Shown in pieces: positions 5,985-54,673 of a stretch of 64,000 nt of DNA (positions are counted from its first letter, which is position 1; each line of letters begins with the position of its first letter). Origin of the DNA: Pollenia angustigena (Eukaryota; Arthropoda; Insecta; Diptera; Polleniidae); NCBI GenBank assembly GCA_930367215.1, contig OV884058.1, forward strand, positions 219,398,208 to 219,462,207. The letters run 5' to 3'. The notes beneath the pieces were generated by a model. The model did not search any database. It was not told the origin of the DNA and saw nothing but the letters and a program-made list of their open reading frames with translations. The position numbers and the translations under genes are program-made.

Positions 5985-6623
5985 CAAGGCGAATTTAACT
6001 ACAGGTGGTGGCTCAACTAAAACGATCTTAAAACAACAAAAGGCCCAACTATAATACGCTTAAGTTGCCTTAAGCAATTGTGCAAATACATATTAATCAT
6101 ATGTCTCAAACTATAATGAGCTAAAGGACAGTTTTTGTTAAGTTTTATTAATCTGTCATTTGCTTCAGCAAGTGCGAAACTGAGCGCACTTTCCGAACGG
6201 AAACAAATGTTTTTTGATTTTGCATTTGAGAGGCTTTTCTAAGGCCAATTCATCCCAGCTAATCTCGGTACAACAACAAGTACAATGATTGTAAAATCAT
6301 TGTACAAAGTCAAAAACAAAAATAAAACAAAACAGAAACAAAGATAATAAAAGAGAATAAACAATATTTTGACATCCAACAGTGATTTAAGCTTATATCA
6401 GCAGGGCTATTAAGACCACCTGTAATAAATTCGCCTTGGGCTTTTCATTCATTTTTGAGGGAAGCTTATGCATATTATAGTTGGCCCTTAAGGCTTTTTG
6501 CATTGCATTGTTAGTGTTAACGGCTCGCAATATCAACCATTTTTAGCAAAACACTAACACAACCAAAACACGTTGGTTCGAGCTGTCGAAGTGTGCCATC
6601 ATGCTTATACTGAATTCGCCTCA
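5985..6623. mobile_element. CAAGGCGAATT-family non-autonomous element (outer copy)
   Basis: The left end is CAAGGCGAATTTAACTACAG. The right end is a mutated AATTCGCCT terminus at 6623. It is flanked by TGCAAAAT (5977-5984) and TACAAAAT (6624-6631), an 8-bp TSD with one mismatch. The interior right part matches the 46994-47152 and 55588-55719 copies (phrase TTAGTGTTAACGGCTCG). It is interrupted by the inner copy 6240-6438. An 8-bp TSD fits the hAT or P superfamilies; no transposase is present. Confidence 0.7.
6240..6438. mobile_element. CAAGGCGAATT-family MITE nested in a relative
   Basis: A 199-bp copy with ends TAAGGCCAATTCATC and, read inward from the right, CAAGGCGAATTTATTACAGG. It is flanked on both sides by a perfect 8-bp TSD, GGCTTTTC (6232-6239 and 6439-6446). 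Its interior (AATCTCGGTACAACAACAAG) matches the partial copy at 29290. Confidence 0.85.
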
Positions 6624-8414: not shown

Positions 8415-9602
8415 CAGGGCTGCCCATTTAGTGGTTTTAAACCGCCGGCTTAGCATGGATGTCAGCTGGAGTGTCATTAATTAAGTGAAAGGATTGCGAT
8501 TTACGTATATGAGTCACGTAAAAACCGGGAAACGCTTAAAACACTTGCAAAAGTGTTGCGTTATAGGTTGATTATGATCACCATAATCGGCCTACTGTTC
8601 AAGGAATTGCCAGGATTATAAGACAATTTGGAGTAATTGAATGCGTTATAGATGTGGTCAGGACTGTGCATCATAGCAATATGCGCACTGCCGAAAATAT
8701 CGCTTCTGTTAATGAAAGTGTGGCGGATAATCGGAATTTATCGATTCTACGGCATTCTGAGCTATTGGTCTTATTTAACAGCTTATTATGGCGTAGTTTG
8801 AATTTTGATTTGCACCTTCATCCATAATAAGAAAAACTCAGGCAACAATTAAGGTTAGAATGCCGTAGATATGCTGATTGGGTGGTAGAGTAACAACATG
8901 CTTTCGATGCTTAGTTTTCGAACAAAATTTTCTTCAGCGATGAAGATCATTTCTCACTAGGTGGTCAAGTCAAAAAGCAAAATTGTCGCATAAGAACTTC
9001 GGAGAACCTATAAGTGATTGTGGAAAAGCCAATGCATCGGGAAAAAGTAACAGTTTGGTGCACATTTTAGTCTAGAGATGTCATTGGGCCGTATTTGTTC
9101 AGAGTCCTATGGCCGTATTTTACCGAATTTGTTTGCCTTAAGTTGAAGATTATGAACTGGACAATATGTGTATAAGTGTATAATAAGACGTTGCCACGAG
9201 CCATACAGCATGATGGATTTTGGCTTTATTCCATGTGAAAATGTGAAAAAAACGCGAAATTTCATGTTTAAGCGTCGTTGATTTGCCATGATCATGCGAT
9301 TTAACGCCGTTAGACTTTTTTCTGGGGCTACGTAAAGACCCGTAACCACGCGGAAATTTTTAACGTTGGAACATTTTAAAACCAACTTTCGTCAAGTTAT
9401 CGCCGGGATACCGCCCGAAATGTGCGAAAAAGTCGAAAACTACCTCAAAGAGATCGACTGCGGCAACCAATCTAAATGACATTGTATTTCGTACGTTATG
9501 GCAACGTCCAAGCATTTAAATGAAATAAAAGTTTCATCGAAATCATAGCTTTATGTGTGTTTTATTTGAATTTAATTTTCAAACTGAAAAAAGGATATCC
9601 TG
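8415..9602 (+). mobile_element. Degenerate rosa-like (DD41D) mariner
   Basis: A 1188-bp element flanked by TA (8413-8414, 9603-9604). The ends are CAGGGCTGCCCATTT and, reversed, CAGGATATCC. A transposase reading is recognisable on the plus strand but broken by many stops and shifts: a HTH-side segment near 8540-8660, a FSDE[D/A]HFSLGG-like first catalytic segment near 8935, a VTVWC segment near 9050 and an LTPLDFFLG-like third catalytic Asp near 9300. Its 3' part from 9231 is duplicated at 16231. It cannot make an active transposase. Confidence 0.8.
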
Positions 9603-9604
9603 TA

Positions 9605-10540
9605 ATTTGTTAAATGTGAACATTGAGGCTTAAGTATTTTTAGCACCTCTCCCGCTCGTCGTTTATGAGCATTATGCATAAAGACTTGCATTTACACGCT
9701 CACAAGGTGCAATTAACTCAAGAACTAAAGCCTGTTGATCATTCCAAATGTCGTCAATGGTCAGAATGGTGGCAAGAAATGGCAACAGTGGATGATCAAT
9801 TTCAAAGAAAATCATCTTCAGTAATGAGGCGCATTTTCCCCTCAGTGGATACTTCAATAAGCAGAATTGCCGCATTTGGGCGAATGATAATCTAAGACTG
9901 ATTGTCGAAAAACCAATGCACCCACAAAGAGTGACTGTTTGGTGCGGTTTATGGGCTGGCGGCATCATCGGGCCGAATTTTTTCCGAAATGAGGCCGGTC
10001 AGGCAGTTACTGTGAATGGTGTTCGCTAACGTGAGATGATAACGAACTTTTTATGGCCCGAACATTAAATGTGGACGATATGTGGTTTTGATAGAACGGT
10101 GCTACTTGCCACACAGCTAACGAAACAATGGCTCTTTTGCGCGACAAATTCAATGGCCGTGTTATCTCACGTGGTGGGGATGTCTTTTGGCCGCCAAGAT
10201 CATATGATTTGACACAGTTGGACTTCTTTCTTTGAGGTTATTTAAAAGAAAAGATGTACATCGATAAGCCAGCAACAATTCAAGAGCTGAAGGATGAGAT
10301 AATTCGGCACATTAACGGCAAAGAACCTAAATTATGTCTCAGCGTCATCGAAAATTTGGACCATCGGATGGAGTCGTGCCGCCGAGGCCGCGGCGGCCAT
10401 TTGCCCGATATTTTGTTCCATACATATTTGAACCATAGCAATATTATCTTAATAAAAAGAAATGACAACAATTTCCTAAATAATTTGTGTTTTATACAAA
10501 ATCAACATCGGCCCTTAAAATCTAACCGCCCCTATTTTAT
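9605..10540 (+). pseudogene. 5'-truncated rosa-like mariner (B, unit 1)
   Basis: Broken transposase reading from the HKDLHLHAHKVQLTQELKP segment (9672) through FSNEAHFPLSG, HPQRVTVWCGLWAGGIIGP (about 9920-9970), a QDGATCH-equivalent segment with a damaged Asp (about 10095), WPPRSYDLTQLDFFL (about 10190) to GGHLPDILFHT (about 10400). It has several frameshifts and stops, including CGCTAACG at 10025 where unit 2 keeps CGCTATCG. The 5' end with the DNA-binding domain is missing. No complete TIR is visible; the 3' end is near 10540. Confidence 0.8.
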
Positions 10541-11093
10541 AAATTTAATAATTCCCCAAAGGCAAATAGAGTCCCAATAAAGCATTTTTCTTGCTCTCTA
10601 TACAAATTTCTATGTTCTTATTTCTTTTTATTTTATGAAAATTTATTTTGTGATACCATCACAAATATCCCATATGGTTGGCTTTAGAGAAAATGTTCTG
10701 TGTTTTGAGCGAAAAGTAAATCACTAGATTAAAGATGAGAGATTTTAACTTCAAATAATCCATAAATACTAGGGTATTAATCGATGTTTTGTATTAATCG
10801 ATTAATCGTGCAAAAAATTATTCGAGGCAAAAATTTAATCGATTAATAATCGAAAAATGTTATATTATTAGGTTAATCGAATAATTTTAATTTTGTCTAG
10901 TTTAGAAGTTTGAAAATAAGACCAAGAATTCTATTTTTTAACAAAAATTTTAATAAAAAAGTAACAACATTTAAGCTACGTTCACAATCAAAAAAACATT
11001 TTCACTTGGTGTTCATAATAGAGAATTTTGCTTCAAGAAAACGTTCGCAAATTTTAGCCACAACAATATTATGCATTTATTTTTATTTTTGTT

Positions 11094-11731
11094 AAAGGTG
11101 CATGTAGACGACATGTTTTTTACATCTGACTTGTCAACTTTTCAAGTCACATGTAATTGTTCATGTCTGTCAAAATTGCTGTTTTACATAAGGTTTATAA
11201 TATTCGGTCACAAACGTACATGTAATTTGCTTCTGACATTGTCTCTGTTTTTTTTTTGCATTGTTATTGCAGAAACCAAAGTAGTTCTCGGTTTCAAAAT
11301 AGCTTGCTGCCGCCAGGAAAATATTTATTTGCGCCGTAAAATAATTTAGCCATTTTAAAATTGTTTCTTTTATTTTAAAGATAATAATTTAGAATTTTAT
11401 AATTAAACGGTTTTTATGTATATATTTACATAAATTCTATTCAATGGTGAGATGAGCATACATATCTTGGTATTGTAAGATATTAACTTCAGCCGGCTAA
11501 TGATTCCGTCAATAGTTGACGCCGCTGCCAGTTTCTTCCCGGCATAGATTTCTGATGTCAGATGGTTTGTCAGAAGAAAATAGAGCACGCTCTTATTGAA
11601 ATTTTGTCAGATGACTTTGCGTCTGACTTTTACAGAAGCAAAGTAAAAGAGGTAACACACGACATGTATGTGTTTTGCAGTGGGAAATTTGACATGTCAG
11701 ATGACAAAAACATGTCGTCTATATGCTCCTT
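11094..11731. mobile_element. MITE with GACGACATGTTTTT ends (unit 1)
   Basis: The left end, AAGGTGCATGTAGACGACATG, and the right end, reversed AAGGAGCATATAGACGACATG, match over about 45 bases. It is non-coding. In unit 2 the first 13 bases of this terminus are deleted (18124). Confidence 0.65.
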
Positions 11732-12190
11732 AAGGTGTTATGATACTTGCTATTTTTTGTATTGGATTTTTTTAGGATTGACTGAATGAAACAACAAATG
11801 CGAGAAAGAACAAGAAATACAATTTGATAAAATGTAAACAAAATAAACAATACTGCCCACGTTTTTTCCCCACAAAAAACCGTCATAAAAGCTAAAAATC
11901 GCAAAAAAAAAAAGTTAAAAACCGTTTCTTTCGATCAAAAACTAAAAAAATTGGCAACAGTGCTAACAATTAATCTGGAAATGTCAATTTTAAGTTAAAA
12001 AATTTTATATTTTTTTTGACAGTCTTAGATTATTTATCGATAACACATGTATATTTGTTTGACATTTCAAGATTTTTTATGATATAATCATACTCTTTAC
12101 ACTTAGTCAGTTTTCCTATGCAAATATATTTGCACTGTTCTCCAATACAGAAGAAATTCAAAAAATAGCAAGTATCATAACAGCTTAAAC
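11730..12190. mobile_element. MITE with TGTTATGATACTTGC ends (unit 1)
   Basis: The left end, TTAAGGTGTTATGATACTTGC without its last base, and the reversed right end, TTTAAGCTGTTATGATACTTG, continue into CTATTTTTTG and CTGTATTGGA matches. It abuts the end of the preceding MITE, so the two may have inserted into each other or form one composite. Confidence 0.6.
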
Positions 12191-12865
12191 ATTTTGTTAA
12201 AAATTTCATTCAAAACTAAATAAAATTATTTTAAACGTCAGAAACAATTTCATACAAATTGTTGCTGAAGTTCTAGTTGACTTAACTTTAGTTACATTTT
12301 AAAAAAAATTTTAGTTACATTCAAGGCCCATTGAAAAGGTCTGCGCCAGAAGCCTGATGATCATTGTTTTCGTTCTTTTGAACTTTCAAAAGTTGTTTAC
12401 TTTTGCTTTGTATATGTGGTAGTAAGTTTTTGACAGCTCAAAAGAAAAAGTTTTTTGTTTTTGTACAAGTAAGCAGACCTGATAGATCGGCCTTGGTTAC
12501 ATTTTTGTTCTAAAAATGAAAGGAAAATATATGAAATACTTTGGGAAGAAAAAAGATAGAAGAAAAAATGAAATTGTTTTTTTGATTGTGAACGTAGCTT
12601 TAAACAAAAGGTTATAAAGCATATCCAATTTCTTTGTCCTTTTTTTTCTTTTCTAAAAATTGGAAGTCTTCCATTATACCGATTGAATCTCTTTTGGATT
12701 TTTTTAACCATTTTAATATGTTAAATAGTCTTGTAATAGTCTGGTAAAAGATTGTTTTCATTCGTCTCAAAAAAATCATCTGATTCAGTGTGGTAAAAGT
12801 CAGTACTCAACATTCTTAAAAATAATTTATTCCAAAACTCTTTGGTTTCAGTATTTGTACTATAC

Positions 12866-13242
12866 CAAGGCGAATTCATAAAGGTGACATTTTCCAGTCA
12901 TCTGTTTATTGTTTATTTTTTTTGTGTGTATACTGAATGTCAAGCTTTGTTTACATTTTGTGAAAAAATTAATTCAAATTTAAAATTCAATAAAAATTTA
13001 AATAGTTGAAAAAAAAACACTTATTTAAATTATATAAAACAAAAAAAATGAAAAAATATAAACACAAGAAATTAAAGATGCGTAAGGAAAACAAAAAAAA
13101 TTCCTTTTTTATGTTTTCAACAAATATTTTTGACATTCACTCTAACTTTTTACAAAAACAAAATACATAGTATTTTTCAATAAAAATGGATAGCTAGCAT
13201 AACTCTATCTCACGATGCGGTCACCTTTATTAATTCGCCTTG
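12866..13242. mobile_element. CAAGGCGAATT-family MITE (unit 1)
   Basis: A 377-bp copy with CAAGGCGAATTCATAAAGGT and reversed CAAGGCGAATTAATAAAGGT ends. It is flanked by GTACTATAC on both sides (12857-12865 and 13243-13251): a perfect 9-bp match, or an 8-bp TSD plus one base of ambiguity. Confidence 0.85.
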
Positions 13243-13251
13243 GTACTATAC

Positions 13252-13708
13252 TATATATCCGTGGCATTTTGACAAACATCTTAAGCAGAATGTACTAATA
13301 AAGCGCAGCTGTTTGCAGTGATTTTCTTCGTGTGTGACGTTTGGTGTCATTTTTATTGTTTATTTACTTTTTTTAATAAGGCATTTTGATATTTTCCGTC
13401 TCAATTCTAGCACCAAAACGCCTGTTGTTTTTTCTATTGTTTCATTGTTGTAGTACTGAGGTCACTTTGTTAATACATTTTGATCTTAAGTCAAGTTTAA
13501 AAAGTTGAAAAAAATGTTGTTAATCATACGATTGAAAAAGCCTTTTTGTTTGCGTTTTTAAAATTTTGTATTTTTAACGAAATTTTTCTTTAATTTTGGT
13601 TTATTTTATAATTTAATAAAAATTATTTTTTCACCGAGTTGTTTTAAAAACTTTTTTGCTATCTTATCTCGGCTTAAGATGTTTTGTCAAAATGCCACAG
13701 ATATGTAT
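13252..13708. mobile_element. MITE with CTGTGGCATTTTGACAAA ends (unit 1)
   Basis: TATATCCGTGGCATTTTGAC at the left and reversed TACATATCTGTGGCATTTTG at the right, with TIR homology to ACATCTTAAGC (about 36 bp). The same family at 23451-24759 is split by tRNA-like units. Non-coding. Confidence 0.7.
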
Positions 13709-13965
13709 TAAAAAATTGCTACTTGAAGGAAATGTTGCTAATTTATAAAATAGTAAAAGGGTATTTAAAACGTACCGGCTTGTTTTTTTACATAAAAGAA
13801 TAAAAATAATACTAAAAAAAAAATTTCGATTAATCGATTAATCGACATATGTAAATTATTCGAATTATTTGTTAATCGAAAATAAGCAATTTTAAATTAT
13901 TCGAACAGCTAGTCGATCAAAATTAATCGATTAATCGAACAACGGTTAATCGTTTGAATACCCTA

Positions 13966-14449
13966 ATGAAAACTTCCCATTTTCTATGCAAACATTTTAC
14001 GAAAAACCTAATTTTTTATTGCCAAAAATATTATGGTGTAAAAAATCGAACGAAATTTGTTGAACCGTTTTATTATGGGATTTTTCAACAACACACGAAC
14101 ATACAACATATCGTTACATTAAATCCAAAAAGGCGTAAGCGGCAAAAATTCAAAATCGACCTTTTGATTGATTATGACGTAAATGGGTTAATAGCATCAT
14201 AAGCAATCAAAATATCTATTTTGAAATTTTAGTCGAAAACGGTCTTTAGCTGAAATATTAGGTGACGGCATATGCATACATACATAAACTTCTAAGCTTA
14301 AAAAAATTAGAATAACGAAATGTTTAGTTTTCTGTCCAATTTGTTGAATGTGCTTTCATTTGGAAAATAAACCAAGCAGCCAGCATATCGCCCCGTCTGT
14401 CTGTTTTTACATCTAAGAGCATTTTTATACACATACTCTATTTTACACT
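13966..14449. other. Non-coding gap in duplication unit 1
   Basis: AT-rich. The 82-codon ORF starting at 13954 overlaps the hAT-like terminus, is identical in both duplication units and shows no recognisable domain. I do not call it a gene. Confidence 0.4.
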
Positions 14450-15142
14450 AATACACTACACCAATAGGGGTACAGTGGGTATTATACGTTTGTGGTGATG
14501 TGAGTATTTCAAAGAGTATTGTTATTATACCGATCAACTTAAAATAACTTGTTAAAGCGAACTTACGATGTCCGTCCGCCTGATTGGCTGTAAGCTTTCT
14601 GCGGCATCTCAGATGGCAATTTTGGCTATAATTTGGTGAAATTTCGTTCATAAGTTTTAATTGTCATAAGAACGAAGCATATTGAAAATGGTGAGAATCT
14701 TTCGATAACTTCGCATAGCGCACATACAAACTTCATTTCGGAGAAAAGTTTTCGCACACATTAACAGCGTTCTCGGCTTGTCACCAAATAGGGGGCTTTT
14801 TGTAATTTGGTATAAAAATTTTGTGAAAATCCCCATGGGATTTTTTGGAGAAAAAGCCACTTTTTTCGCTGGGGATTTTTGGGGATAATACACATAAAAT
14901 TAAAAAGGCCATTTGTGTAATCGGAAGACCGATCTGGTGCAGAGTTTGGAACAAATTTAAGTCTTTTTTGAACCAAAGTTTGTTTCATACCAAGGCGCTG
15001 TTGATTCGAAAATTTTTCAAGAGATTGCTGAAATAGTTCTAAATATAAATTCTGTACCAACAGTAACGCTTGCTTTGAACAAGTGCTTTTAAAAAATACA
15101 CACTTTAAAAATAACTCAGGTTGCTCAGACAAAATTTATTCC
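14450..15142 (+). repeat. Mini-me-like repeat (unit 1)
   Basis: Contains a GATGTCCGTCCGCCTGATTGG core, then a GCAATTTTGGCTATAATTTG body. Positions 15150-15340 add an extra family phrase (CTTCGCACTGCGTTAAAAG) that recurs at 28825. A diverged copy is at 24790-25470. The 123-codon and 78-codon minus ORFs here are repeat-derived and not supported as genes. Confidence 0.5.
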
Positions 15143-15342
15143 ATTTTCTCAAATGCTAAAGGCCGTGTCAAATACATCTTCCGCTAGCGTGAAGTTTCTG
15201 AATTTGATAGAAAAACGATTTATTGGAATTTAATTTGGCAAAATAAAAAATAAAATAAAAGAAAATTATACTACATGACTGTCAAAGCGCGCAAAAAGAT
15301 GCGACATGCCTAACTTTTTGCTTCGCACTGCGTTAAAAGCAG

Positions 15343-15862
15343 TGTTCGAAAATAAACACTACATTATTTACCATTCGGCTCCCATACCCAGGAACGATAT
15401 CTATTTTTTAATGATTGTGTAAACAAACACAACCCTTAATACCGCTCGTTACTATTTTCAAGAACGAGCCGAACGTTATGTAGTGTTCTGTTCTTCGTTA
15501 AAAAACAGAACAATTGTAGTGATACTGCAGACAATCATTATATTTTAATGTTCTATAGTGTTTCTTGTTTACATTGATAAAGAAATGAACAAACAAAAAA
15601 TTTAGGCAACGACCGCAGCACGATAAACACAACAGAAACGAACGAACATTAATGAGCTGATCCGAACACAATGAAGTTTGTAGTTTAAAAAAAAAAATAC
15701 CTAACGGAATTAAATGCTCTCATCTTTTGTTGAGTTTGATAAGAACATTAATATTTTTGTGTTTTTTAATAGTTCACTACACAAACACTATTAGCGTTTG
15801 TGTTTCCCACAAATCTACCAAACCGAACACTAAGGAGCGATATTAAGTGTTTATTTTCGAAC
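15343..15862. mobile_element. Foldback element, GTTCGAAAATAAACACT ends (unit 1)
   Basis: GTTCGAAAATAAACACTA at 15345 and reversed GTTCGAAAATAAACACTT at 15845-15862. The interior is rich in GAACGAAC and CGTTCTTG-type motifs that can also fold. No TSD was resolved. Confidence 0.55.
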
Positions 15863-16036
15863 TCAGCTTACATGTTCCATAACACTTTGAAAGATAGAAA
15901 TAAAATGAGTCTTATTGCAACTGTCAAAAAATCTAAATTAAAAATAGAGGTTGCATTCACACTAACGCACATGAACACGCTTTTGTTAAAATGCAATTCT
16001 GATCAAATTAAAAGTATGTAGGCCTCACCACTGGCC

Positions 16037-16230
16037 TTATTCTGTAATTCGCTAAAGCTAAATCTCTATCGCTAAAAATCTTTAAAGTTGATTTAGCGAT
16101 TTTTGGCTACGAATGCAGTACTGTAACGTGCATTGCTAAATTTGGCAATGCCATAACAATTTAATTCACCGCAATTTTAGCTTTTATTGTCATCACTAAA
16201 ATTTTTAAATTTTGTGCTCTCTAAGGCATT
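16037..16230. mobile_element. MITE truncated at the duplication junction
   Basis: Left TIR (TGTAATTCGCTAAAGCTAAA, then CTATCGCTAAAA) and body, ending abruptly at 16230. The complete copy with both TIRs is at 23074-23317. Confidence 0.85.
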
Positions 16231-16619
16231 CCATGTGAAAATGTGAAAAAAACGCGAAATTTCATGTTTAAGCGTCGTTAATTTGCCATGATCATGCGAT
16301 TTAACGCCGTTAGACTTTTTTCTGGGGCTACGTAAAGACCCGTAACTACGCGGAAATTTTTAACGTTGGAATATTTTATTAAAACCAACTTTCGTCAAGT
16401 TATCGCCGGGATACCGCCCGAAATGTGCGAAAAAGTCGAAAACCACCTCAAAGAGATCGACTGCGGCAACCAATCTAAAGGCGGTCACTTAAATGACATT
16501 GTATTTCGTACGTTATGGCAACGTCCAAGCATTAAAATGACATAAAAGTTTCATCGAAATCATAGTTTTATGTGTGTTTTATTTGAATTTAATTTTCAAA
16601 CTGAAAAAAGGATATCCTG
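16231..16619 (+). pseudogene. 3' fragment of mariner A created by the duplication
   Basis: Identical layout to 9231-9602, starting mid-transposase and keeping the right TIR (CAGGATATCC reversed, near 16610-16619). The left part is absent because the duplication breakpoint cuts here. Confidence 0.85.
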
Positions 16620-16621
16620 TA

Positions 16622-17558
16622 ATTTGTTAAATGTGAACATTGAGGCTTATGTATTTTTTGCACCTCTCCCGCTCGTCGTTTATGAGCATTATGCATAAAG
16701 ACTTGCATTTACACGCTCACAAGGTGCAATTAACTCAAGAACTAAAGCCTGTTGATCATTCCAAATGTCGTCAATGGTCAGAATGTTGGCAAGAAATGGC
16801 AACAGTGGATGATCAATTTCAAAGAAAATCATCTTCAGTAATGAGGCGCATTTTCCCCTCAGTGGATACTTCAATAAGCAAAATTGCCGCATTTGGGCGA
16901 ATGATAATCTAAGACTGATTGTCGAAAAACCAATGCACCCACAAAGAGTGACTGTTTGGTGCGGTTTATGGGCTGGCGGCATCATCGGGCCGAATTTTTT
17001 CCGAAATGAGGCCGGTCAGGCAGTTACTGTGAATGGTGTTCGCTATCGTGAGATGATAACGAACTTTTTATGGCCCGAACATCAAATGTGGACGATATGT
17101 GGTTTCGAAAGAACGGTGCCACTTGCCACACAGCTAACGAAACAATGGCTCTTTTGCGCGACAAATTCAATGGCCGTGTTATCTCACGTGGTGGGGATGT
17201 CTTTTGGCCGCCAAGATCATATGATTTGACACAGTTGGACTTCTTTCTTTGAGGTTATTTAAAAGAAAAGATGTATGTACATCGATAAGCCAGCAACAAT
17301 TCAAGAGCTGAAGGATGAGATAATTCGGCACATTAACGGCAAAGAACCTAAAATATGTCTCAGCGTCATCGAAAATTTGGACCATCGGATGGAGTCGTGC
17401 CGCCGAGGTCGCGGCGGCCATTTGCCCGATATTTTGTTCCATACATATTTGAACCATAGCAATATTATCTTAATAAAAAGAAATGACAACAATTTCCTAA
17501 ATAATTTGTGTTTTATACAAAATCAACATCGGCCCTTAAAATCTAGCCACCCTTATTT
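16622..17558 (+). pseudogene. 5'-truncated rosa-like mariner (B, unit 2)
   Basis: Second copy of 9605-10540, slightly less decayed in places: VNGVRYREMITNFLWPEHQM is readable at about 17030-17085, and RKNGATCH at about 17110 keeps Cys-His but has Asn where the family has the catalytic Asp. Frameshifts and stops remain, and the N-terminal DNA-binding region is absent. Inactive. Confidence 0.8.
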
Positions 17559-17984
17559 TATAAACTTAATAATTCCCCAAAGGCAAATACAGTCCCAATA
17601 AAGCATTTTCTTGCTCTCTATACAAATTTCTATGTTCTTATTTCTTTTTATTTTATGAAAATTTATTTTGTGAAAACATCACAAATATCCCATATGGTTG
17701 GCTTTAGAGAAAATTTTCTGTGTTTTGAGCGAAAAGTAAATCACTAGATTAAAGATGAGAGATTTTAACTTCACATAATCCATAAATACTAGGGTATTAA
17801 TCGATGTTTTGTATTAATCGATTAATCGTGCAAAAAATTATTCGAGGCAAAAATTTAATCGATTAATAATCGAAAAATGTTATATTATTAGGTTAATCGA
17901 ATAATTTTAATTTTGTCTAGTTTAGAAGTTTGAAAATAAGACCAAGAATTATATTTTTTAACAAAAAAAAAAGTAACAACATTT

Positions 17985-19634
17985 AAGCTACGTTCACAAT
18001 CAAAAAAACATTTTCACTTGGTGTTCATAATAGAGCAACAATTTCTTCTGTAACTACACACATTTTGCTTCAAGAAACCGTTCGCAAATTTTAGCCACAA
18101 CAATATTATGCATTTATTTTTATTTTTGTTAACGACATGTTTTTTACATCTGACTTGTCAACTTTTCAAGTCACATGTAATTGTTCATGTCTGTCAAAAT
18201 TGCTGTTTTACATAAGGTTTATAATATTCGGTCACAAACGTACATGTAATTTGCTTCTGACATTGTCTCTGTTTTTTTTCGCATTGTTATTGCAGAAACC
18301 AAAGTAGTTCTCGGTTTCAAAATAGCTTGCTGCCGCCACGAAAATATTTATTTGCGCCGTAAAATAATTTAGCCATCTTAACATTTTTTCTTTTATTTTA
18401 AAGATACCAATTTAGAATTTTATAATTAAACAGTTTTATGTATATATTTACATAAATTATATTCAATGGTGAGATGAGCATACATATCTTGGTATTGTAA
18501 GATATTAACTTCAGCCGGCTAATGATTCCGTCAATAGTTGTCGCCGCTGCCAGTTTCTTCCCGGCATAGATTTCTGATGTCAGATGGTTTGTCAAAAGAA
18601 AATAGAGCACGCTCTAATTGAAATTTTGTCAGATGACTTTGCGTCTGACTTTTACAGAAGCAAAGTTAAAGAGGTAACACACGACATGTATGTGTTTTGC
18701 AGTGGGAAATTTGACATGTCAGATGACAAAAACATGTCGTCTATATGCTCCTTAAGGTGTTATGATACTTGCTATTTTTTGTATTGGATTTTTTTAGGAT
18801 TGACTGAATGAAACAACAAATGCGAGAAAGAACAAGAAATACAATTTGATAAAATGTAAACAAAATAAACAATACTGCTCACGTTTTTTCCCCACAAAAA
18901 ACCGTCATAAAAGCTAAAAATCGCAAAAAAAAGTTTAAAACCGTTTCTTTCGATCAAAAACTAAAAAAATTGGCAACAGTGCTAACAATTAATCAGGAAA
19001 TGTCAATTTTAAGTTAAAAAATTTTATATTTTTTTTGACAGTCTTAGATTATTTATCGATAACACGTGTATATTTGTTTGACATTTCAAGATTTTTTATG
19101 ATATAATCATACTCTTTACACTTCGTCAGTTTTCCTATGCAAATATATTTGCACTGTTCTCCAATACAGAAGAAATTCAAAAAATAGCAAGTATCATAAC
19201 AGCTTAAACAATTTGTTAAAATTTTCATTCAAAACTAAATAAAATTATTTTAAACGTCAGAAACAATTTCATACAAATTGTTGCTGAAGTTCTAGTTGAC
19301 TCAACTTTAGTTACATTTTAAAAAAAATTTTAATTACATTCAAGGCCCATTGAAAAGGTCTGCGCCAGAAGCCTGATGATCATTGTTTTCGTTCTTTTGA
19401 ACTTTCAAAAGTTGTTTACATACACGTTTTTTCCTTTTGCTTTGTATATGTGGTAGTAAGTTTTTGACAGCTCAAAAGAAAAAGTTTTTTGTTTTTGTAC
19501 AAGTAAGCAGACCTGATAGATCGGCCTTGGTTACATTTTTGTTCTAAAAATGAAAGGAAAATATATGAAATACTTTGGGAAGAAAAAAGATAGAAGAAAA
19601 AATGAAATTGTTTTTTTGATTGTGAACGTAGCTT
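17985..19634. mobile_element. Nested GCTACGTTC foldback plus two MITEs (unit 2)
   Basis: Duplicate of 10973-12602. The inner MITEs lie at about 18125-18753 (left terminus partly deleted) and 18752-19212. A small insertion relative to unit 1 is present near 18035-18062. Confidence 0.6.
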
Positions 19635-19899
19635 TAAACAAAAGGTTATAAAGCATATCCAATTTCTTTGTCCTTTTTTTTCTTTTCTAAAAATTGGAAG
19701 TCTTCCATTATACCGATTGAATCTCTTTTGGATTTTTTTAACCATTTTAATATGTTAAATAGTCTTGTAATAGTCTGGTAAAAGATTGTTTTCATTTGTC
19801 TCAAAAAAATCATCTGATTCAGTGTGGTAAAAGTCAGTACTCAACATTCTTAAAAATAATTTATTCCAAAACTCTTTGGTTTCAGTATTTGTACTATAC

Positions 19900-20276
19900 C
19901 AAGGCGAATTCATAAAGGTGACATTTTCCAGTCATCTGTTTATTGTTTATTTTTTTTGTGTGTATACTGAATGTCAAGCTTTGTTTACATTTTGTGAAAA
20001 AATTAATTCAAATTTAAAATTCAATAAAAATTTAAATAGTTGAAAAAAAAACACTTATTTAAATTATATAAAACAAAAAAAATGAAAAAATATAAACACA
20101 AGAAATTAAAGATGCGTAAGGAAAACAAAAAAAATTCCTTTTTTATGTTTTCAACAAATATTTTTGACATTCACTCTAACTTTTTACAAAAACAAAATAC
20201 ATAGTATTTTTCAATAAAAATGGATAGCTAGCATAACTCTATCTCACGATGCGGTCACCTTTATTAATTCGCCTTG
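19900..20276. mobile_element. CAAGGCGAATT-family MITE (unit 2)
   Basis: Duplicate of 12866-13242 with the same GTACTATAC flanks. It was therefore in place before the segmental duplication. Confidence 0.85.
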
Positions 20277-20286
20277 GTACTATACT

Positions 20287-20742
20287 ATATATCCGTGGCA
20301 TTTTGACAAACATCTTAAGCAGAATGTACTAATAAAGCGCAGCTGTTTGCAGTGATTTTCTTCGTGTGTGACGTTTGGTGTCATTTTTATTGTTTATTTA
20401 CTTTTTTTAATAAGGCATTTTGATATTTTCCGTCTCAATTCTAGCACCAAAACGCCTGTTGTTTTTTCTATTGTTTCATTGTTGTAGTACTGAGGTCACT
20501 TTGTTAATACATTTTGATCTTAAGTCAAGTTTAAAAAGTTGAAAAAAATGTTGTTAATCATACGATTGAAAAAGCCTTTTTGTTTGCGTTTTTAAAATTT
20601 TGTATTTTTAACGAAATTTTTCTTTAATTTTGGTTTATTTTATAATTTAATAAAAATTATTTTTTCACCGAGTTGTTTTAAAAACTTTTTTGCTATCTTA
20701 TCTCGGCTTAAGATGTTTTGTCAAAATGCCACAGATATTTAT
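20287..20742. mobile_element. CTGTGGCATTTTGAC MITE (unit 2)
   Basis: Duplicate of 13252-13708, with a few substitutions at its right end. Confidence 0.7.
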
Positions 20743-21486
20743 TAAAAAATTGTTACTTAAAGGAAATGTTGCGCATTTATAACATAGTAAAAGGATATTT
20801 AAAACGTATCGGCTTGTTTTTTTTTACATAAAAGAATAAAAATAATACTAAAAAAAAAAATTTCGATTAATCGATTAATCGACATATGTAAATTATTCGA
20901 ATTATTTGTTAATCGAAAATAAGCAATTTTAAATTATTCGAACAGTTAGTCGATCAAAATTAATCGATTAATCGAACAACGGTTAATCGTTTGAATACCC
21001 TAATGAAAACTTCCCATTTTCTATGCAAACATTTTACGAAAAACCTAATTTTTTATTGCCAAAAATATTATGGTGTAAAAAATCGAACGAAATTTGTTGA
21101 ACCGTTTTATTATGGGATTTTTCAACAACACACGAACATACAACATATCGTTACATTAAATCCAAAAAGGCGTAAGCGGCAAAAATTCAAAATCGACCTT
21201 TTGATTGATTATGACGTAAATGGGTTAATAGCATCATAAGCAATCAAAATATCTATTTTGAAATTTTAGTCGAAAACGGTCTTTAGCTGAAATATTAGGT
21301 GACGGCATATGCATACATACATAAACTTCTAAGCTTAAAAAAATTAGAATAACGAAATGTTTAGTTTTCTGTCCAATTTGTTGAATGTGCTTTCATTTGG
21401 AAAATAAACCAAGCAGCCAGCATATCGCCCCGTCTGTCTGTTTTTACATCTAAGAGCATTTTTATACACATACTCTATTTTACACT

Positions 21487-22179
21487 AATACACTACACCA
21501 ATAGGGGTACAGTGGGTATTATACGTTTGTGGTGATGTGAGTATTTCAAAGAGTATTGTTATTATACCGATCAACTTAAAATAACTTGTTAAAGCGAACT
21601 TACGATGTCCGTCCGCCTGATTGGCTGTAAGCTTTCTGCGGCATCTCAGATGGCAATTTTGGCTATAATTTGGTGAAATTTCGTTCATAAGTTTTAATTG
21701 TCATAAGAACGAAGCATATTGAAAATGGTGAGAATCTTTCGATAACTTCGCATAGCGCACATACAAACTTCATTTCGGAGAAAAGTTTTCGCACACATTA
21801 ACAGCGTTCTCGGCTTGTCACCAAATAGGGGGCTTTTTGTAATTGGGTATAAAAATTTTGTGAAAATCCCCAGGGGATTTTTTGGAGAAAAAGCCACTTT
21901 TTTCGCTGGGGATTTTTGGGGATAATACACATATAATTAAAAAGGCCATTTGTGTAATCGGAAGACCGATCTGGTCCAGAGTTTGGAACAAATTTAAGTC
22001 TTTTTTGAACCAAAGTTTGTTTCATACCAAGGCGCTGTTGATTCGAAAACTTTTCAAGAGATTGCTGAAATAGTTCTAAATATAAATTCTGTACCAACAG
22101 TAACGCTTGCTTTGAACAAGTGCTTTTAAAAAATACACACTTTAAAAATAACTCAGGTTGCTCAGACAAAATTTATTCC
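21487..22179 (+). repeat. Mini-me-like repeat (unit 2)
   Basis: Duplicate of 14450-15142. Confidence 0.5.
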
Positions 22180-22379
22180 ATTTTCTCAAATGCTAAAGGC
22201 CGTGTCAAATACATCTTCCGCTAGCGTGAAGTTTCTGAATTTGATAGAAAAACGATTTATTGGAATTTAATTTGGCAAAATAAAAAATAAAATAAAAGAA
22301 AATTATACTACATGACTGTCAAAGCGCGCAAAAAGATGCGACATGCCTAACTTTTTGCTTCGCACTGCGTTAAAAGCAG

Positions 22380-22899
22380 TGTTCGAAAATAAACACTACA
22401 TTATTTACCATTCGGCTCCCACACCCAGGAACGATATCTATTTTTTAATGATTGTGTAAACAAACACAACCCTTAATACCGCTCGTTACTATTTTCAAGA
22501 ACGAGCCGAACGTTATGTAGTGTTCTGTTCTTCGTTAAAAAACAGAACAATTGTAGTGATACTGCAGACAATCATTATATTTTAATGTTCTATAGTGTTT
22601 CTTGTTTACATTGATAAAGAAATGAACAAACAAAAAATTTAGGCAACGACCGCAGCACGATAAACACAACAGAAACGAACGAACATTAATGAGCTGATCC
22701 GAACACAATGAAGTTTGTAGTTTAAAAAAAAAAATACCTAACGGAATTAAATGCTCTCATCTTTTGTTGAGTTTGATAAGAACATTAATATTTTTGTGTT
22801 TTTTAATAGTTCACTACACAAACACTATTAGCGTTTGTGTTTCCCACAAATCTACCAAACCGAACACTAAGGAGCGATATTAAGTGTTTATTTTCGAAC
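22380..22899. mobile_element. GTTCGAAAATAAACACT foldback (unit 2)
   Basis: Duplicate of 15343-15862. Confidence 0.55.
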
Positions 22900-23073
22900 T
22901 CAGCTTACATGTTCCATAACACTTTGAAAGATAGAAATAAAATGAGTCTTATTGCAACTGTCAAAAAATCTAAATTAAAAATAGAGGTTGCATTCACACT
23001 AACGCACATGAACACGCTTTTGTTAAAATGCAATTCTGATCAAATTAAAAGTATGTAGGCCTCACCACTGGCC

Positions 23074-23317
23074 TTATTCTGTAATTCGCTAAAGCTAAAT
23101 CTCTATCGCTAAAAATCTTTAAAGTTGATTTAGCGATTTTTGGCTACGAATGCAGTACTGTAACGTGCATTGCTAAATTTGGCAATGCCATAACAATTTA
23201 ATTCACCGCAATTTTAGCTTTTATTGTCATCACTAAAATTTTTAAATTTTGTGCTCTCTAAGGCATTTTAGCGATAGACATTTAGCTTTACCTAAGCGAA
23301 TTACGGAATACGAGTGC
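23074..23317. mobile_element. Complete MITE spanning the right duplication breakpoint
   Basis: The left TIR (TATTCTGTAATTCGCT..AAAGCTAAATCTCTATCGCTAAAA) pairs with the right end read inward (TATTCCGTAATTCGCTTAGG..AAAGCTAAATGTCTATCGC), about 40 bp with small gaps. The duplicated part ends at 23267. The remaining right TIR (23268-23317) is unique to this copy, so it marks the original right flank. No clear TSD. Confidence 0.75.
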
Positions 23318-25535: not shown

Positions 25536-25832
25536 CAAGGCGAATTCATACAAGGTGGTCTTATTTTGAAAACGTTTTGCAACACTGTTACACATTTTAA
25601 CGTTGTGTCAAAAATTCAAACAAAAATTTGATTTTGTTTTTAATTTTAAATTGTGTTTTTTAAAATGTTATAACTTAAAAAAGTTGTAAATTTCACAATT
25701 GTAATCGAAAATTATTGAATTTTGTTAAGATTCCCCCAGAACCAACAGGATGGTATACCATTTTGACACAAGGTTAGTAATCAGCTGTTGCTTACATAGC
25801 AAGATAAGTTCACCTGGTGTAAATTCGCCTTG
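25536..25832. mobile_element. CAAGGCGAATT-family MITE with perfect TSD
   Basis: 297 bp, with ends CAAGGCGAATTCATACAAGG and reversed CAAGGCGAATTTACACCAGG. It is flanked by TTAATTAG at 25528-25535 and 25833-25840, a perfect 8-bp TSD. It sits inside TTAATTAGGC-type sequence of the 560-bp repeat family. Confidence 0.9.
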
Positions 25833-29420: not shown

Positions 29421-30702
29421 AAAATTTAAAAACTATTTGTTTCAAATTTAGAAACATTTTCCGTAACCGTTACAGTACTGACTAAAGTTGCAATTATGAT
29501 GGCATATGGGCTTTTGCCGGTTGTTTTTGATGATGTCATCTACAAATGAGTAGTGGAGTGTTGTATTTTGTGCTGCCATCTGCTTTTATGTAGTGGCGTT
29601 TTTTATTTTTAATGAATTGATGGGATTTATTTGCTGGCTTTTTATGAGAGGTGCCACACCAAAGTTAAACGCCGGTTAGTCAGGAAATTACAATGAAAAT
29701 TTAAGGAGAAGCCCATAATTGCCTTAATATCTCGAAAACTAATTTAAATAAAAAGATGATTCTTATGTCATTTTAAGGAGAATACTTCGGGCTTAAAAAT
29801 GTTGGGAAAAAATAGACGAAATCAAACATCTTAATATTTTTTGCTGATTTTTTTAGTAAAACACCTCTTGCTGTTCTTTAAAGACCTTGAAATTTTCAAG
29901 GAAATGCTTCTTTTTCTTTTGCAACCTTTAATGGCGGCAATAGTAAATTGCTAAAATTTTTGTTCAGATAAGTTCAGTTTTGACAATAAGTATCATATAA
30001 ACGCGGTTTCCAAGTGCCAGGCGATTTAATGTAAAGTAAAATGTACATAAAAATCACTCAGGTTTTTTGAGTGCTTTTCACATAAATTTTTCTCCACTAT
30101 CAATCGCCTGTCATTTGGAAACAGTACAGTAACCTCATAACTGGCGCTCCAAATAGGTTATACTCTTCAAAAGTTTGTCTATAAATGCATTAGTGTAGGG
30201 TATCATACGATTGGACTTGACCGATTACACATTTTACATGTTTTTTCGTTGATATAGCAGGGAAAAACTATTTCAGTGAAGTGGAAAATATGAATTTAAA
30301 AAATATTTTTCTATTTACAGATTTTTTCTTCTCAGTTTTCCGAATTCTACTTCAAGTATTTTCAATAGTGTGTGTGTGTGTGTATGTGTGTGTGGAAAAT
30401 GAAGTTGAAAAAGGGGTTAGTAAGTAAGCTTTTGAATATTATGGATTTTTGGTTCATGTCATAAAATTTTATTAAATTCTTATGCGTTATTGTCTTTTCT
30501 GTTTTTATGGCCAAAAATATGCATGTCTAGAGATGGCTGGATTAATGAAAGAATTAGAATAAACGAATGAGTGTTTTTGGTATTAAATTTTATGGGCATA
30601 TAAAAGAAAGCATTTTGAGTTTTTGTTTTAGTTATTTCAATAAAATGCAGAGTTGCAAGAATTTTGAGTAACTTTAACTAGTAACTTTAAGTAGGTTTCA
30701 AG
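29421..30702. other. Mostly unassigned DNA with one small hairpin and a TG microsatellite
   Basis: A small inverted pair occurs at 30010-30125 (GGTTTCCAAGTGCCAGGCGA versus its reversed partner) and a (TG)n run at 30367-30394. Nothing else was recognised; no coding. Confidence 0.45.
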
Positions 30703-32690
30703 CAAGGCGAATTGACTTTCAGGTGGCGTTGAAAACACAGCTGTTCTACTTTTTTCTTGCATAATTGGGTAGAGACATGTCAAAAGTTGTTAACATTTTC
30801 TTTTATAATTATGAAGAGATATGTCAAAAGATGTTTATGCTAAATTGTAACTGGAAGTTTTTGCAATAAAACGGGCTGAACAAAGAGCTGAACGGCACAC
30901 CAAAATGATATTGAAAGGTGAAACAAATTGGATGCTCCCATCAGTCGAAGAAAAGCTTAAGAAAAGGAGCAAAGAAGCCAAGATAAATAAATCAAAAAAG
31001 AAAAAAGATAAGCACAATAAAATATCCAAAATAAAGTCCAATAAAAAAGCGGAAACACTCTAGCTCCGAAGAGAAAAGAGAATCTAGGGATAGTAAATCC
31101 ACAATTGATGATAGTGAAAGTTCTTAATCGGAAGATGACAATAGAAGGCTTAAAAAATCTAAACTAAAAACTAGACCGAGTCCGAAAAGTAAGGTTTTAA
31201 GCAGTAGCGTTAGTGACAGCGATGTATCAGATGACAAAAATCAAAACTTTGTGGATTTGAAGAAAAGAGAAGAGCCACTACAACGAGATAGTTGGATGAA
31301 AGATGCTTTAATGTTAAAAACGTATTCACGGGAACGCACAGGAAGTAAGCCAAATGAAATAAAAAAACAAGTTGATGCGTACGACCCGGCAAAAAGCTCA
31401 ATAGAACTAAATCCCTATTGGAAAACGACAGGAACTGGTATACCCGCATTTAAGAAACCAAAAGATGACGATGACTACATTAGTACAAAATCAGAAAAAT
31501 CAATATATTTGCAAAGTTTAATTCAGTGTAAAGGATGAAAAAAGCAAAGAAACAAAAATAAATTCACTGAAAGCATGACGCCTCAGAGAAAAAAATTACA
31601 CGATGGCAGTGATGATGAGACTGCATATAATGAAGCTGTGCCGAAAGAGAAATAAAATGAAAAATCTTGCTCTTCTACATCAGAATTTTTTACTGACCAT
31701 CAAATGAACTAATTAGGAGCAAAAATACTTTAAGCTGAAATAATGTGCAATATGGAACTTGCAGATGAATTACGAAAAAAACTAGAAAAAGCACGCGCCC
31801 AAAGAAATATTTTTAAAGAACGACAAAAATCTCTTTATATTGAGAGTAACGATAACAGATCCAAATCAAAAGGCGATAAATCACTGATAAAGCGGGACAT
31901 ACTAGACCAGTTCCACTATCGAAAATACTGGATCCAAATGATTCATACGGCGGCAAGAAAAAACAACAGCAAAAACGTGTTTACACCCATGATGAAACTG
32001 GCGAAAGAGTTCGATTCTTTCCTGATGATGGTCGATATGATATAAAACAAATGTTTGAAAGAGAGAAGTAAACAAGTGTCTCTGATGCCAATTTACAGTT
32101 TGCAAATATTTCTGGAAAGCACAAAAACCTTTACGATGACATGGAAGATATTTTTGCCACCCAAAACGTAAGAATTTGGAAGTAGTTTTTATTTTATTAC
32201 GCCTTAAATGTAATTTTTATAATTTTTGTTATTTTTGTACATTTATATAATATAGAGAAATGTCAAAAGTTGTTTACAATTGAATTCGACTTGTTTACGT
32301 TTTTTGACATACCGACCAACTCAAGCAACAATAAAAAACAGTGTGGTTTTTCGTGTTGTTGACTTGTAGTCTCGCCGCCACCTGAAGTCAATTCGCCTTG
32401 ATTTGAAGCTAAATTAACAAAAAAGAAATCGGAGCAAATTCAAATACCTTTTCCAATATACTGCACACACATTCATATACATGTTCGTTTATTTATATAT
32501 TTTAAAGTTTTTTTTTTTTTAAATAATGTATGTGAATTTGTGTCAATAAATACCACATGTTTGTTTATTTTCCTTTTTGTTGTAAAACTCGGAAGTACTT
32601 CTTTATGCATACATGTGTGTTTAGTTGCCATAGCAGTATCTTTCACTTCCTTTATGTGTTATTTATCCTTTTGTAAGTAAATTCGCCTTG
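30703..32690 (+). mobile_element. CAAGGCGAATT-family element carrying a captured host gene fragment
   Basis: The left end is CAAGGCGAATTGACTTTCAG (30703). There are two candidate right ends. One at 32400 (reversed CAAGGCGAATTGACTTCAGG) is the best TIR match but has an imperfect flank (ATTTGAAG). One at 32690 is followed by GTTTCAAG, a perfect match to 30695-30702. The cargo is a broken CWF19L2-like coding region. No transposase is present. If the 8-bp TSD is real, the element is 1988 bp. Confidence 0.75.
30846..32173 (+). pseudogene. Captured CWF19L2-like spliceosome-protein pseudogene fragment
   Basis: Family role: CWF19-like proteins act with the spliceosome, in late splicing and lariat handling. 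Collinear segments are readable in shifting frames: a GETNWMLPSVEEKL motif, a Lys/Ser-rich tract, RDSWMKDALMLKT (about 31288-31326), ELNPYWKTTGTGIPA (about 31410), LGAKIL.AEIMCNMELADEL (31710-31770), KRVYTHDETGERVRFFPDD (31975-32030) and DDMEDIFATQNV (about 32138-32167). Compared with my memory of human CWF19L2, this covers the near-N-terminal to central region and lacks the C-terminal CwfJ (HIT-like) domains. Internal stops and at least one frameshift (near 31060; TAA at 31122) make it a pseudogene. Homology ends exactly at a GTAAGA donor-like sequence (32168-32173), which suggests DNA-level capture rather than retroposition. Confidence 0.8.
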
Positions 32691-32700
32691 GTTTCAAGAA

Positions 32701-52660: not shown

Positions 52661-54075
52661 AGTTTATTTAAAAAAAAAATCCCTCTTACAGATTCTCATT
52701 CACTCAGGAGCTTGCATGTTTAATTTTATGTTTCTAGATCCAATAAATACGGATATATAAAAGGTACCAGTTAAAGAACAAAATAGTACCAAAAGCCCTC
52801 TTACAGATTTTCATTCACTCAGGACCTTGCATGTTTAATTTTATGTTTCTAGGTCCAATACTAACGGAAATTCAAAAAGTACCAGTTAAAGAACAAAGAA
52901 GTACCAAAAACTTCCCTCTTATATATTCTTATCCACTTAGGGCATTGCATCTTGAATTTTATGTTTCTAAGTCCAATAATAACGGATATTCAAAAAGTAC
53001 CAGTTTAATAACTAAAAAGTACCTATAAGCGCTTTTAGAGATTCTCATTCACTCAGAACCATGCACGTTTAATTTTATTTTCATTAGACCAACATTAGCG
53101 AAAATTTAAAAAAAGGACCAGTTAAAAAACGAAAAAGCACCAAAAAGATCTCTCTAACAGATTGTCATTCACTCAAGACCTTCCATGTTTAATTGCATGT
53201 TTCTGGGTCCAATACTAACGGAAATTCAAAAAGTACCAGCTAACGAATAAAAAAGTACCAATAAGATCCCACTTAAAGATTCTCATTTACACAGTATCGT
53301 GCATGTTTAATTTTATGTTTCTAGGTCCAATACTGACGGAAACTCAAAAAGTACCAGTAAATGAACAAAAAAGTACCAAAAACTTTCCTCTTAGATTCTT
53401 ATCCACCCAGGACCTTGCATGTTTAATTTTATCTGTCTATGTCCAATACCAACGGAAATTCAAAAAGTACCAGTCCAAGATTAAAAAAGTACCAAAAAGT
53501 TCACTCTTATAGATTCTCATCCATCCAGGGCATTGCATATTGAATTGTATGTTTCTAGGTCCAATACTAACAGAAATTCAAAAAGTACCAGTTAATGAAC
53601 AAAAAAGTACCAAAAAGTTCCCTCTTATAGGTTTTCATCCATTCAGGACATTGCATGTTTAATTTTATTTTTATAGGTCCAATACTAACGGAAATTCAAA
53701 AAGTACCATTTTATGAACAGAAAAGTACCAAAAACTTCCCCTTATGGATTCTTAACCACTCAGGACATTTCATTTTGAATTTTATGTTTCTAAGTCCAAT
53801 ATTAACGTAAATTCAAAAAGTACCAGTTAATGAACAAAAAAGTACCAAAAAGTTCCCTCTTATAGATTCTCATCCATTCGGGACATTGCATGTTTAATTT
53901 TATTTTTATAGGTCCAATACTAACGGAAATTCAAAAAGTACCAGTTAATTAACAGAAAAGTACCAAAAACTGCCCCTTATGGATTCTTATCCATTCCGGA
54001 CATTGCATGATGAATCTTATGTTTTTAGGTCCAACATAAACGATAATTTAAAAAATACCAGTTGTAGAACCAAAA
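52661..54075 (+). repeat. Tandem array, ~12 x 117 bp
   Basis: The anchor AAAAAGTACCAG recurs at about 52771, 52879, 52996, 53115, 53230, 53348, 53466, 53582, 53700, 53818, 53936 and 54053. Each unit has CTCAGGAC-type, TTTAATTTTATGTTTCTAGG and CCAATACTAACGGAAATTC phrases and a second GTACCAAAAA. Units differ from each other by several substitutions. The ORFs at 52831 and 53303 are parts of repeat units. Confidence 0.9.
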
Positions 54076-54673
54076 AGTTAAGTAAAATATCAAATTTCTC
54101 GTATTTCCCCTTTTTGGTACTATTTTCCCCCCATTAAAGTATAAAAAATTTCAGTATAATAGTGGCAGCCCATAATTTAGTACGAATATTTCAATAAATG
54201 GAGAAAAATGTTTTTTAAAAAAAGTACCAAAAATAGTTACGATTTTTACCCCTTAAATGTTCGAATTTCGAAAAAGTACCAAATTTAAATTCGTATATTT
54301 TTGTTAGGTTTCGAATGTGGTATTAATTTTGTTTCTATGTTTATTGGTTCAAAAGATAGATGGGGTGTCAAAAAAGTACTAAAATTCAGATATTACCCGT
54401 TTACTCCCAAATAGGGCCGAATTTCAAAAAAGTACCAGACACCTGTCCGCTTATTTTTCTAAAGAACAACGATAGGTATTAAATTTTTTTGTATCTCTTT
54501 TAGTTTTGGAGATATAAGGTTACCGAATTTTCCCGTTTTTACCCTTTTTTACCCCCTAAACATTCGAATTTCCAAAAATCCCGTCTTAGTGGATCGATTT
54601 GGGGAGTGACCAATCTCTGGTCCAAATTTCAAGTGTCTAGCTTCAGGCGTTTAGGCTGTGCGATGATGAATCG

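Follow-up and report, generated by a model that had tools for sequence, protein, structure and literature searches.

A multicopy transposon with P-like ends carries a fragment of the host gene Cwf19l2 in Pollenia angustigena

A mobile unit of 1698 bp, made up of P-like ends around DNA of the host gene Cwf19l2, lies at positions 30703-32400 of the 64-kb stretch of the Pollenia angustigena genome that we analysed (the window). From left to right on the + strand, it is composed of a 160-bp P-like left end (30703-30862), recognized through a genome search with the left end and common to transposase-bearing relatives; 1296 bp of Cwf19l2 (30863-32158), delimited by alignment to the parent gene; a 74-bp filler (32159-32232), also found in a sister element beside an Rtf2 fragment; 15 bases; and a 153-bp P-like right end (32248-32400), where cargo-free relatives match. 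The left terminal inverted repeat (TIR; 30703-30728, + strand) pairs with the right one at 32376-32400; the two are 26 and 25 bp long, with a one-base indel between them, and a BLAST comparison of the inverted ends gave 37 columns at 86%. Beyond the right end, we noticed 274 bp of ectopic DNA (32401-32674) with 93% identity to C3:219061618-219061891 (L059), followed by 16 nt (32675-32690, + strand) that are identical to the terminal 16 nt of the family's right end and may be a stub left by P-type excision. The target duplication at 32400 is not exact (6/8); identical octamers, GTTTCAAG, instead form the left and right target-site duplication (TSD) at 30695-30702 and 32691-32698. The initial annotation had paired the end at 30703 with one at 32400 or 32690. 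The partner at 32400 stands as an inverted match and 32690 as the outer end flanked by GTTTCAAG, but the latter is only a 16-nt stub. A unit reaching 32690 has to be given up, as the mobile unit elsewhere corresponds to 30703-32400 and 32401-32690 occurs in none of the other element copies fetched.

We searched the fly's own genome (1.37 Gb, 31 contigs) with the cargo as the query. The 58 matches were grouped by hand into 29 places, namely the window, the parent (L012), and 27 further places holding element copies or fragments (L009-L036 except L012). The parent that the initial annotation had proposed to look for is present and intact on another contig (C4:22478803-22480959); the search for further loaded copies was likewise positive, giving the 27 loci just mentioned. 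The parent consists of one uninterrupted 718-codon ORF, intron-free within the ORF. Its protein aligns with human CWF19L2 from solved spliceosome structures in two stretches that span residues 5 to 718 (6id0_U, E 1.5e-105), and it contains both CwfJ C-terminal domains. The closest proteins come from blow flies, Calliphora vicina and Lucilia sericata, at 79-80% across roughly 80% of the length. PF04677 was found at two places in the genome, the parent and C5:231572058, the latter presumably the CWF19L1 paralogue. The captured part, parent codons 30-472, stops ahead of the CwfJ_C_1 domain, which is matched from residue 493. Compared with the parent, the window cargo contains stops and is identical at 1192 of 1292 aligned bases (92.3%), with three indels, and the family consensus differs at 74 of 1329 sites. 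The initial reading of a collinear but broken Cwf19l2 fragment, captured in Pack-type fashion by a short-TIR DNA transposon, was correct, including the identity of the gene. Capture, parent, and transposition are, in our judgment, virtually certain.

The loaded copies bear the marks of repeated insertion. Exact 8-bp target duplications surround 15 of the 18 copies that have both ends, L028 matches at 7/8 positions, and none was seen at L029 and L031; this count leaves aside the nine of the 27 non-parent loci that lack a usable end (L013, L015, L016, L017, L021, L025, L026, L030, and L036). In a chance control, 0 of 20000 random 8-mer pairs matched exactly. Ten copies have a 196-bp deletion in common and form one branch (support 99/94). 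Two members of this branch, L022 (C5) and L023 (C4), are the most alike of the copies: they are separated by one gap and by 3 substitutions in 1554 aligned bases, and have different target duplications; L023 additionally has a 220-bp insertion relative to L022. The rest of the copy tree is weakly resolved (13 of 25 inner branches open). The cargoes diverge from the consensus by 1.5-3.5%; the exception is L035, which was compared along a short part and diverges by 12.6%. The alignment and tree omit L036, a fragment of just 174 bp, and a second, partial copy at the place of L019 was counted with L019 as one place. The exact duplications and the near-identity of L022 and L023 on different contigs indicate that the loaded element jumped repeatedly and recently. 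Together, these data show that it spread by transposition with 8-bp duplications. The same ends also occur free of the cargo, as both ends at L039 and L051 and as the left end at L040 and L050. The element is a Pack-TIR, or Pack-TYPE, transposon: a host fragment lies between TIRs, its parent is identified, the ends exist without the cargo, and the cargo moves along with them.

The cargo was already broken when it spread: a stop at parent codon 292 is present in 24/24 and a stop at codon 443 in 25/25 of the copies covering them, the window copy included. The +2 frameshift of the consensus speaks less strongly for an early break than the stops do, because it sits in an A-run that varies among the copies. 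We counted 768 changes in 26 copies, L035 being omitted, and these were spread over the three codon positions as 263/242/263; synonymous changes numbered 164, compared with 150 +/- 10 expected. Since its spread, the cargo has drifted neutrally, and we saw no coding constraint. The two shared stops and the neutral drift rule out the whole cargo as a present-day protein; in the family consensus, the reading frame stays open over an N-terminal stretch before the A-run. Between the consensus and the parent, we noticed 26 synonymous changes against 16.6 +/- 3.5 expected, an excess that would be fitting for constraint on the parent's side. Polarization of the amino acid changes with three blow-fly proteins assigned 21 to the element and 11 to the parent, with 10 ambiguous and 4 facing gaps.

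To place the family, we turned to relatives with the same ends. The 160-bp left end gave 565 genome candidates, of which 40 were scored; L039, L040, L050, and L051 match positions 1-160 at 94-95%, and L041, whose match reached only base 137 of the left end, was not used further. For the right part, 40 of 549 genome candidates were scored, and the cargo-free relatives match from about query position 86-91 on. Behind the same left end, L040 encodes sequence matching PF21787 (E 2.5e-8) and the Drosophila P transposase (6p5a, E 3.3e-15); its THAP match is below the Pfam cut-off (15.6 versus 23.9 bits). Transposase pieces matching PF21787 were also found at the places of L050 (E 2.4e-15) and L051 (E 2.0e-11). 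The L051 element (C4:169520043-169523679, 3637 bp) has both ends and an 8-bp TSD, AACTTTTC, on either side. A TSD of 8 bp is also characteristic of hAT elements and is therefore not decisive for the superfamily on its own; hAT, which the TSD had first suggested, was set aside, as the coding sequence behind these ends is of the P type. The P-type transposase behind the same ends, combined with the 8-bp duplications, leaves little doubt that the family belongs to the P superfamily. The element itself would be moved by a P-type transposase encoded elsewhere in the genome. PF21787 has at least 141 matches genome-wide (150 of 237 candidates scored), some in long open frames. The exact end motif was in none of the examined DNA of the eight best transposase loci (L042-L049, with some frames of 870-884 amino acids), so that no autonomous partner was found there.

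The same lineage carries a second host gene. In two sister elements, L039 (C3:196679400-196684100) and L051 (C4:169520020-169523700), fragments of the replication gene Rtf2 lie antisense to the same P-like ends. The L039 pieces match PF04641 at collinear positions of the profile (E values of 3.3e-4 and 7.8e-5), neither piece reaching the curated cut-off; in the genome-wide profile search, the Rtf2 fragments scored above the cut-off. Besides the Rtf2 gene itself (C2:159005938-159006926), this search returned six matches, and five of them, at four places, adjoin P-like ends (C2:104953794, C4:169520496, C1:106598467, C3:196681074, and C3:196682153). L039 is an inverted dimer whose halves differ at 1 of 2229 bases. 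Identity of the fragments to the Rtf2 gene is low, about 73-76%, and the Rtf2 capture therefore looks older than that of Cwf19l2. A search of solved structures with an Rtf2 piece gave no useful result. A separate search of a phage collection gave no match, which is not informative.

The initial annotation had also described the homology as ending exactly at a splice donor-like GTAAGA, as if an exon edge had been captured. Homology to the parent covers 30863-32158, and GTAAGA (32168-32173, + strand) lies within the filler, with nine non-homologous bases in between. None of the 24 other copies covering the site has the GT, 22 of them reading GCAAGA, and the corresponding letters in a sister element that bears a different cargo are GCAACA. 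Exon-edge capture is ruled out by the intronless parent ORF and by a GTAAGA private to the window copy. As the motif is absent from the other copies, it is best read as a late mutation within filler DNA. The suggested comparison of exon structures could be made with the parent, and it favors neither DNA nor cDNA capture: there is no intron in the captured part, and introns therefore cannot tell the two apart. What endures of the first reading is Pack-type capture without the exon edge; new to it are the P superfamily, the amplification, the second captured gene, and a recombinant structure on the right side, where 274 bp are followed by the 16-nt stub. The 74-bp filler is common to the Cwf19l2 element and the Rtf2 element L039 (89%), in opposite orientations relative to the ends, and has weaker matches elsewhere in the genome. 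One match, at L052:2679-2743 (79%), lies inverted downstream of the Rtf2 gene.

We consider it probable, with good confidence, that the window holds a nonautonomous P-superfamily transposon ("Pack-P") in which Cwf19l2 replaced the P interior and that the window copy was later re-repaired. For the founder, we lean toward gap repair as the source of the original capture. A P-like element would have excised, leaving a gap, and the gap would have been repaired by copying, in the course of which the copying strand would have switched to the Cwf19l2 locus. The kind of event that we describe below for the right side of the window copy could be the route by which Cwf19l2 was taken up. There was no clear microhomology at either cargo junction.

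A possible but less probable origin is replication fork stalling and template switching (FoSTeST) followed by transposition, which would have placed Cwf19l2 in the element with no repair of an excision gap. This is the model to which Tan et al. 2021 (PMC8277862) assign multicopy Pack-TIRs; the 74-bp filler suggests serial switching. Against it, the 16-nt stub of the window copy fits excision repair better, though it records a later event, and capture by P elements under the gap-filling model is cited as experimentally shown (PMC8277862). It is improbable that the fragment came from mRNA, by retroposition or cDNA-templated repair, and was then amplified by the transposon. The captured part of the parent is intronless, so introns do not speak against a cDNA; the fragment is internal, however, with neither gene end and no poly-A at its 3' junction, it is joined to filler and P-like ends, and the window copy acquired DNA of another locus on its right side.

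On the right side of the window copy, the 274-bp stretch is low-copy DNA, with three genome candidates including the window itself, and is not a transposon family; its counterpart L059 lies 367 kb away and has no element there. Homology to L059 takes in the 8 bp directly next to the inner right end and reaches no further leftward. The octamer after this inner end, ATTTGAAG, differs from the TSD at 2/8 positions and from ATTTCAAG, the L059 octamer, at 1/8, leaving more than one possible switch point. The stub, a single case, agrees with the family right end at 16 of 17 terminal bases. Cleavage by the P transposase falls 17 nt inside the TIR, and the TSD is 8 bp long (PMC7776569); cleavage of this type can leave such a stub on the flank. 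From the arrangement of these sequences, we infer that the right side is likely a scar of gap repair after P-type excision. The element would have excised, leaving the 16-nt terminal stub at the flank, and the break would have been refilled by copying from an intact loaded copy. Copying would either have overrun into DNA resembling the stretch 367 kb away or have switched to such DNA, and the repair product would have been joined to the stub from P-type cleavage. The switch may have occurred via TTTCAAG, the part common to ATTTCAAG and GTTTCAAG; alternatively, the overrun may have been that of an ectopic copy inserted at ATTTCAAG.

An end bypass, in which a loaded element at an L059-like site moved by means of its left end together with a partial right end farther out and carried the 274 bp along, strikes us as unlikely. 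It would account for L059 homology that includes the 8 bp where the target duplication would lie and then stops leftward, and P-element transduction is on record (cited in PMC8277862). It would, however, require the 16-nt stub to serve as an end, L059 has no such stub, and the two targets, ATTTCAAG and GTTTCAAG, would agree at 7/8 by coincidence (the chance of 7/8 or more is about 0.0014). Insertion of two P-like elements into one 8-bp target, where the left end of the second (32409-32690) would have decayed, would explain three similar octamers in a row, but such tandem insertion is made highly implausible by the match of 32401-32674 to low-copy L059 DNA, rather than to a transposon family, and by L059 homology that passes uninterrupted through the supposed left end.

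Beyond repair of a single copy, one could speculate that this lineage serially captures genes via excision stubs and gap repair and that the amplified fragments, sense for Cwf19l2 and antisense for Rtf2, give rise to small RNAs acting on the parent genes. We regard this as very doubtful; if true, what began as a repair accident would now regulate a splicing factor and a replication factor in trans.

In plants, the uptake of gene fragments by TIR transposons is well documented; there, the Pack-MULEs belong to another transposase superfamily, with a 9-bp TSD and a long TIR. Like the element described here, Pack-MULEs hold gene fragments between TIRs and were amplified (cited in PMC8277862). For animals, Tan et al. 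2021 (PMC8277862) report 370 Pack-TIRs in 100 genomes, four of them multicopy and none of these in insect reference genomes; Ssk-FB4 of Drosophila melanogaster has four copies in populations. Ssk-FB4 and the frog Pack-hAT-N8_XT resemble our element in being TIR elements with a captured host fragment, a parent elsewhere, several copies, and distinct TSDs (PMC8277862). The frog example is on three chromosomes according to the same source, whereas the present element occupies 28 loci including the window, belongs to the P superfamily, and has a second gene in its lineage. Of the 370 animal Pack-TIRs, 323 are hAT or TcMariner (PMC8277862), and a P-superfamily case among the other 47 is possible.

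The Drosophila P element, as described in PMC7776569, has the same 8-bp TSD, a TIR of 31 bp compared with 25-26 bp here, and a transposase homologous to that of the relatives. Its cleavage 17 nt inside the TIR fits the 16-nt stub; its derivatives are internally deleted, whereas here the interior is host DNA (PMC7776569). The P-MITEs of Anopheles gambiae are similar in having P-derived ends around a non-P center, an 8-bp TSD, and many copies (PMC1562414). In that paper, we saw no host gene named as the source of the center (neither "captured" nor "gene fragment" occurs in its main text); here, the source and the breakpoints are known. Turmoil-1 of Caenorhabditis elegans is likewise an animal DNA element that took in protein-coding sequences, in that case coding sequences inside inverted repeats of a different element in a different animal (PMC2572040). 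Laboratory cases of P elements capturing DNA are cited in PMC8277862. In the literature, searched mostly at the level of titles and abstracts, we came across no naturally occurring element of the P superfamily in which a fragment of a host gene had been amplified. Animal Pack-TIRs are already known, and the published multicopy families that we saw are small and few in number. The fly element described here, a Pack element that is natural, multicopy, and of the P superfamily, is on sound grounds a new variant. It provides a natural multicopy case in the superfamily in which gap-filling capture was shown in the laboratory (per PMC8277862). The parent gene, the transposase-bearing relatives, and the sister cargo are all within one genome, and one copy seems to keep a later repair scar. 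The origin of animal Pack elements, by gap filling or by fork switching, becomes testable on real loci.

We also confirmed further CAAGGCGAATT ends in the window, where the exact 11-mer occurs 13 times. At L012:2177 on C4, the end of another CAAGGCGAATT element precedes the start codon of Cwf19l2 by 126 bp; the captured part begins at codon 30. We considered this end as a landing pad for repair; with 13 such ends in 64 kb, its adjacency to the gene may be coincidental. Within the window, a short CAAGGCGAATT element at 5985-6438 has no flanking repeat, and another at 25536-25832 has one of 8 bp. Those at 12866-13242 and 19900-20276, with a 9-bp flanking repeat, are one element that was duplicated. 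The window also contains a 7-kb tandem duplication (9228-16230 and 16228-23267, 97.8% identical) and about 12 tandem copies of a 118-bp repeat unit (52673-54078).
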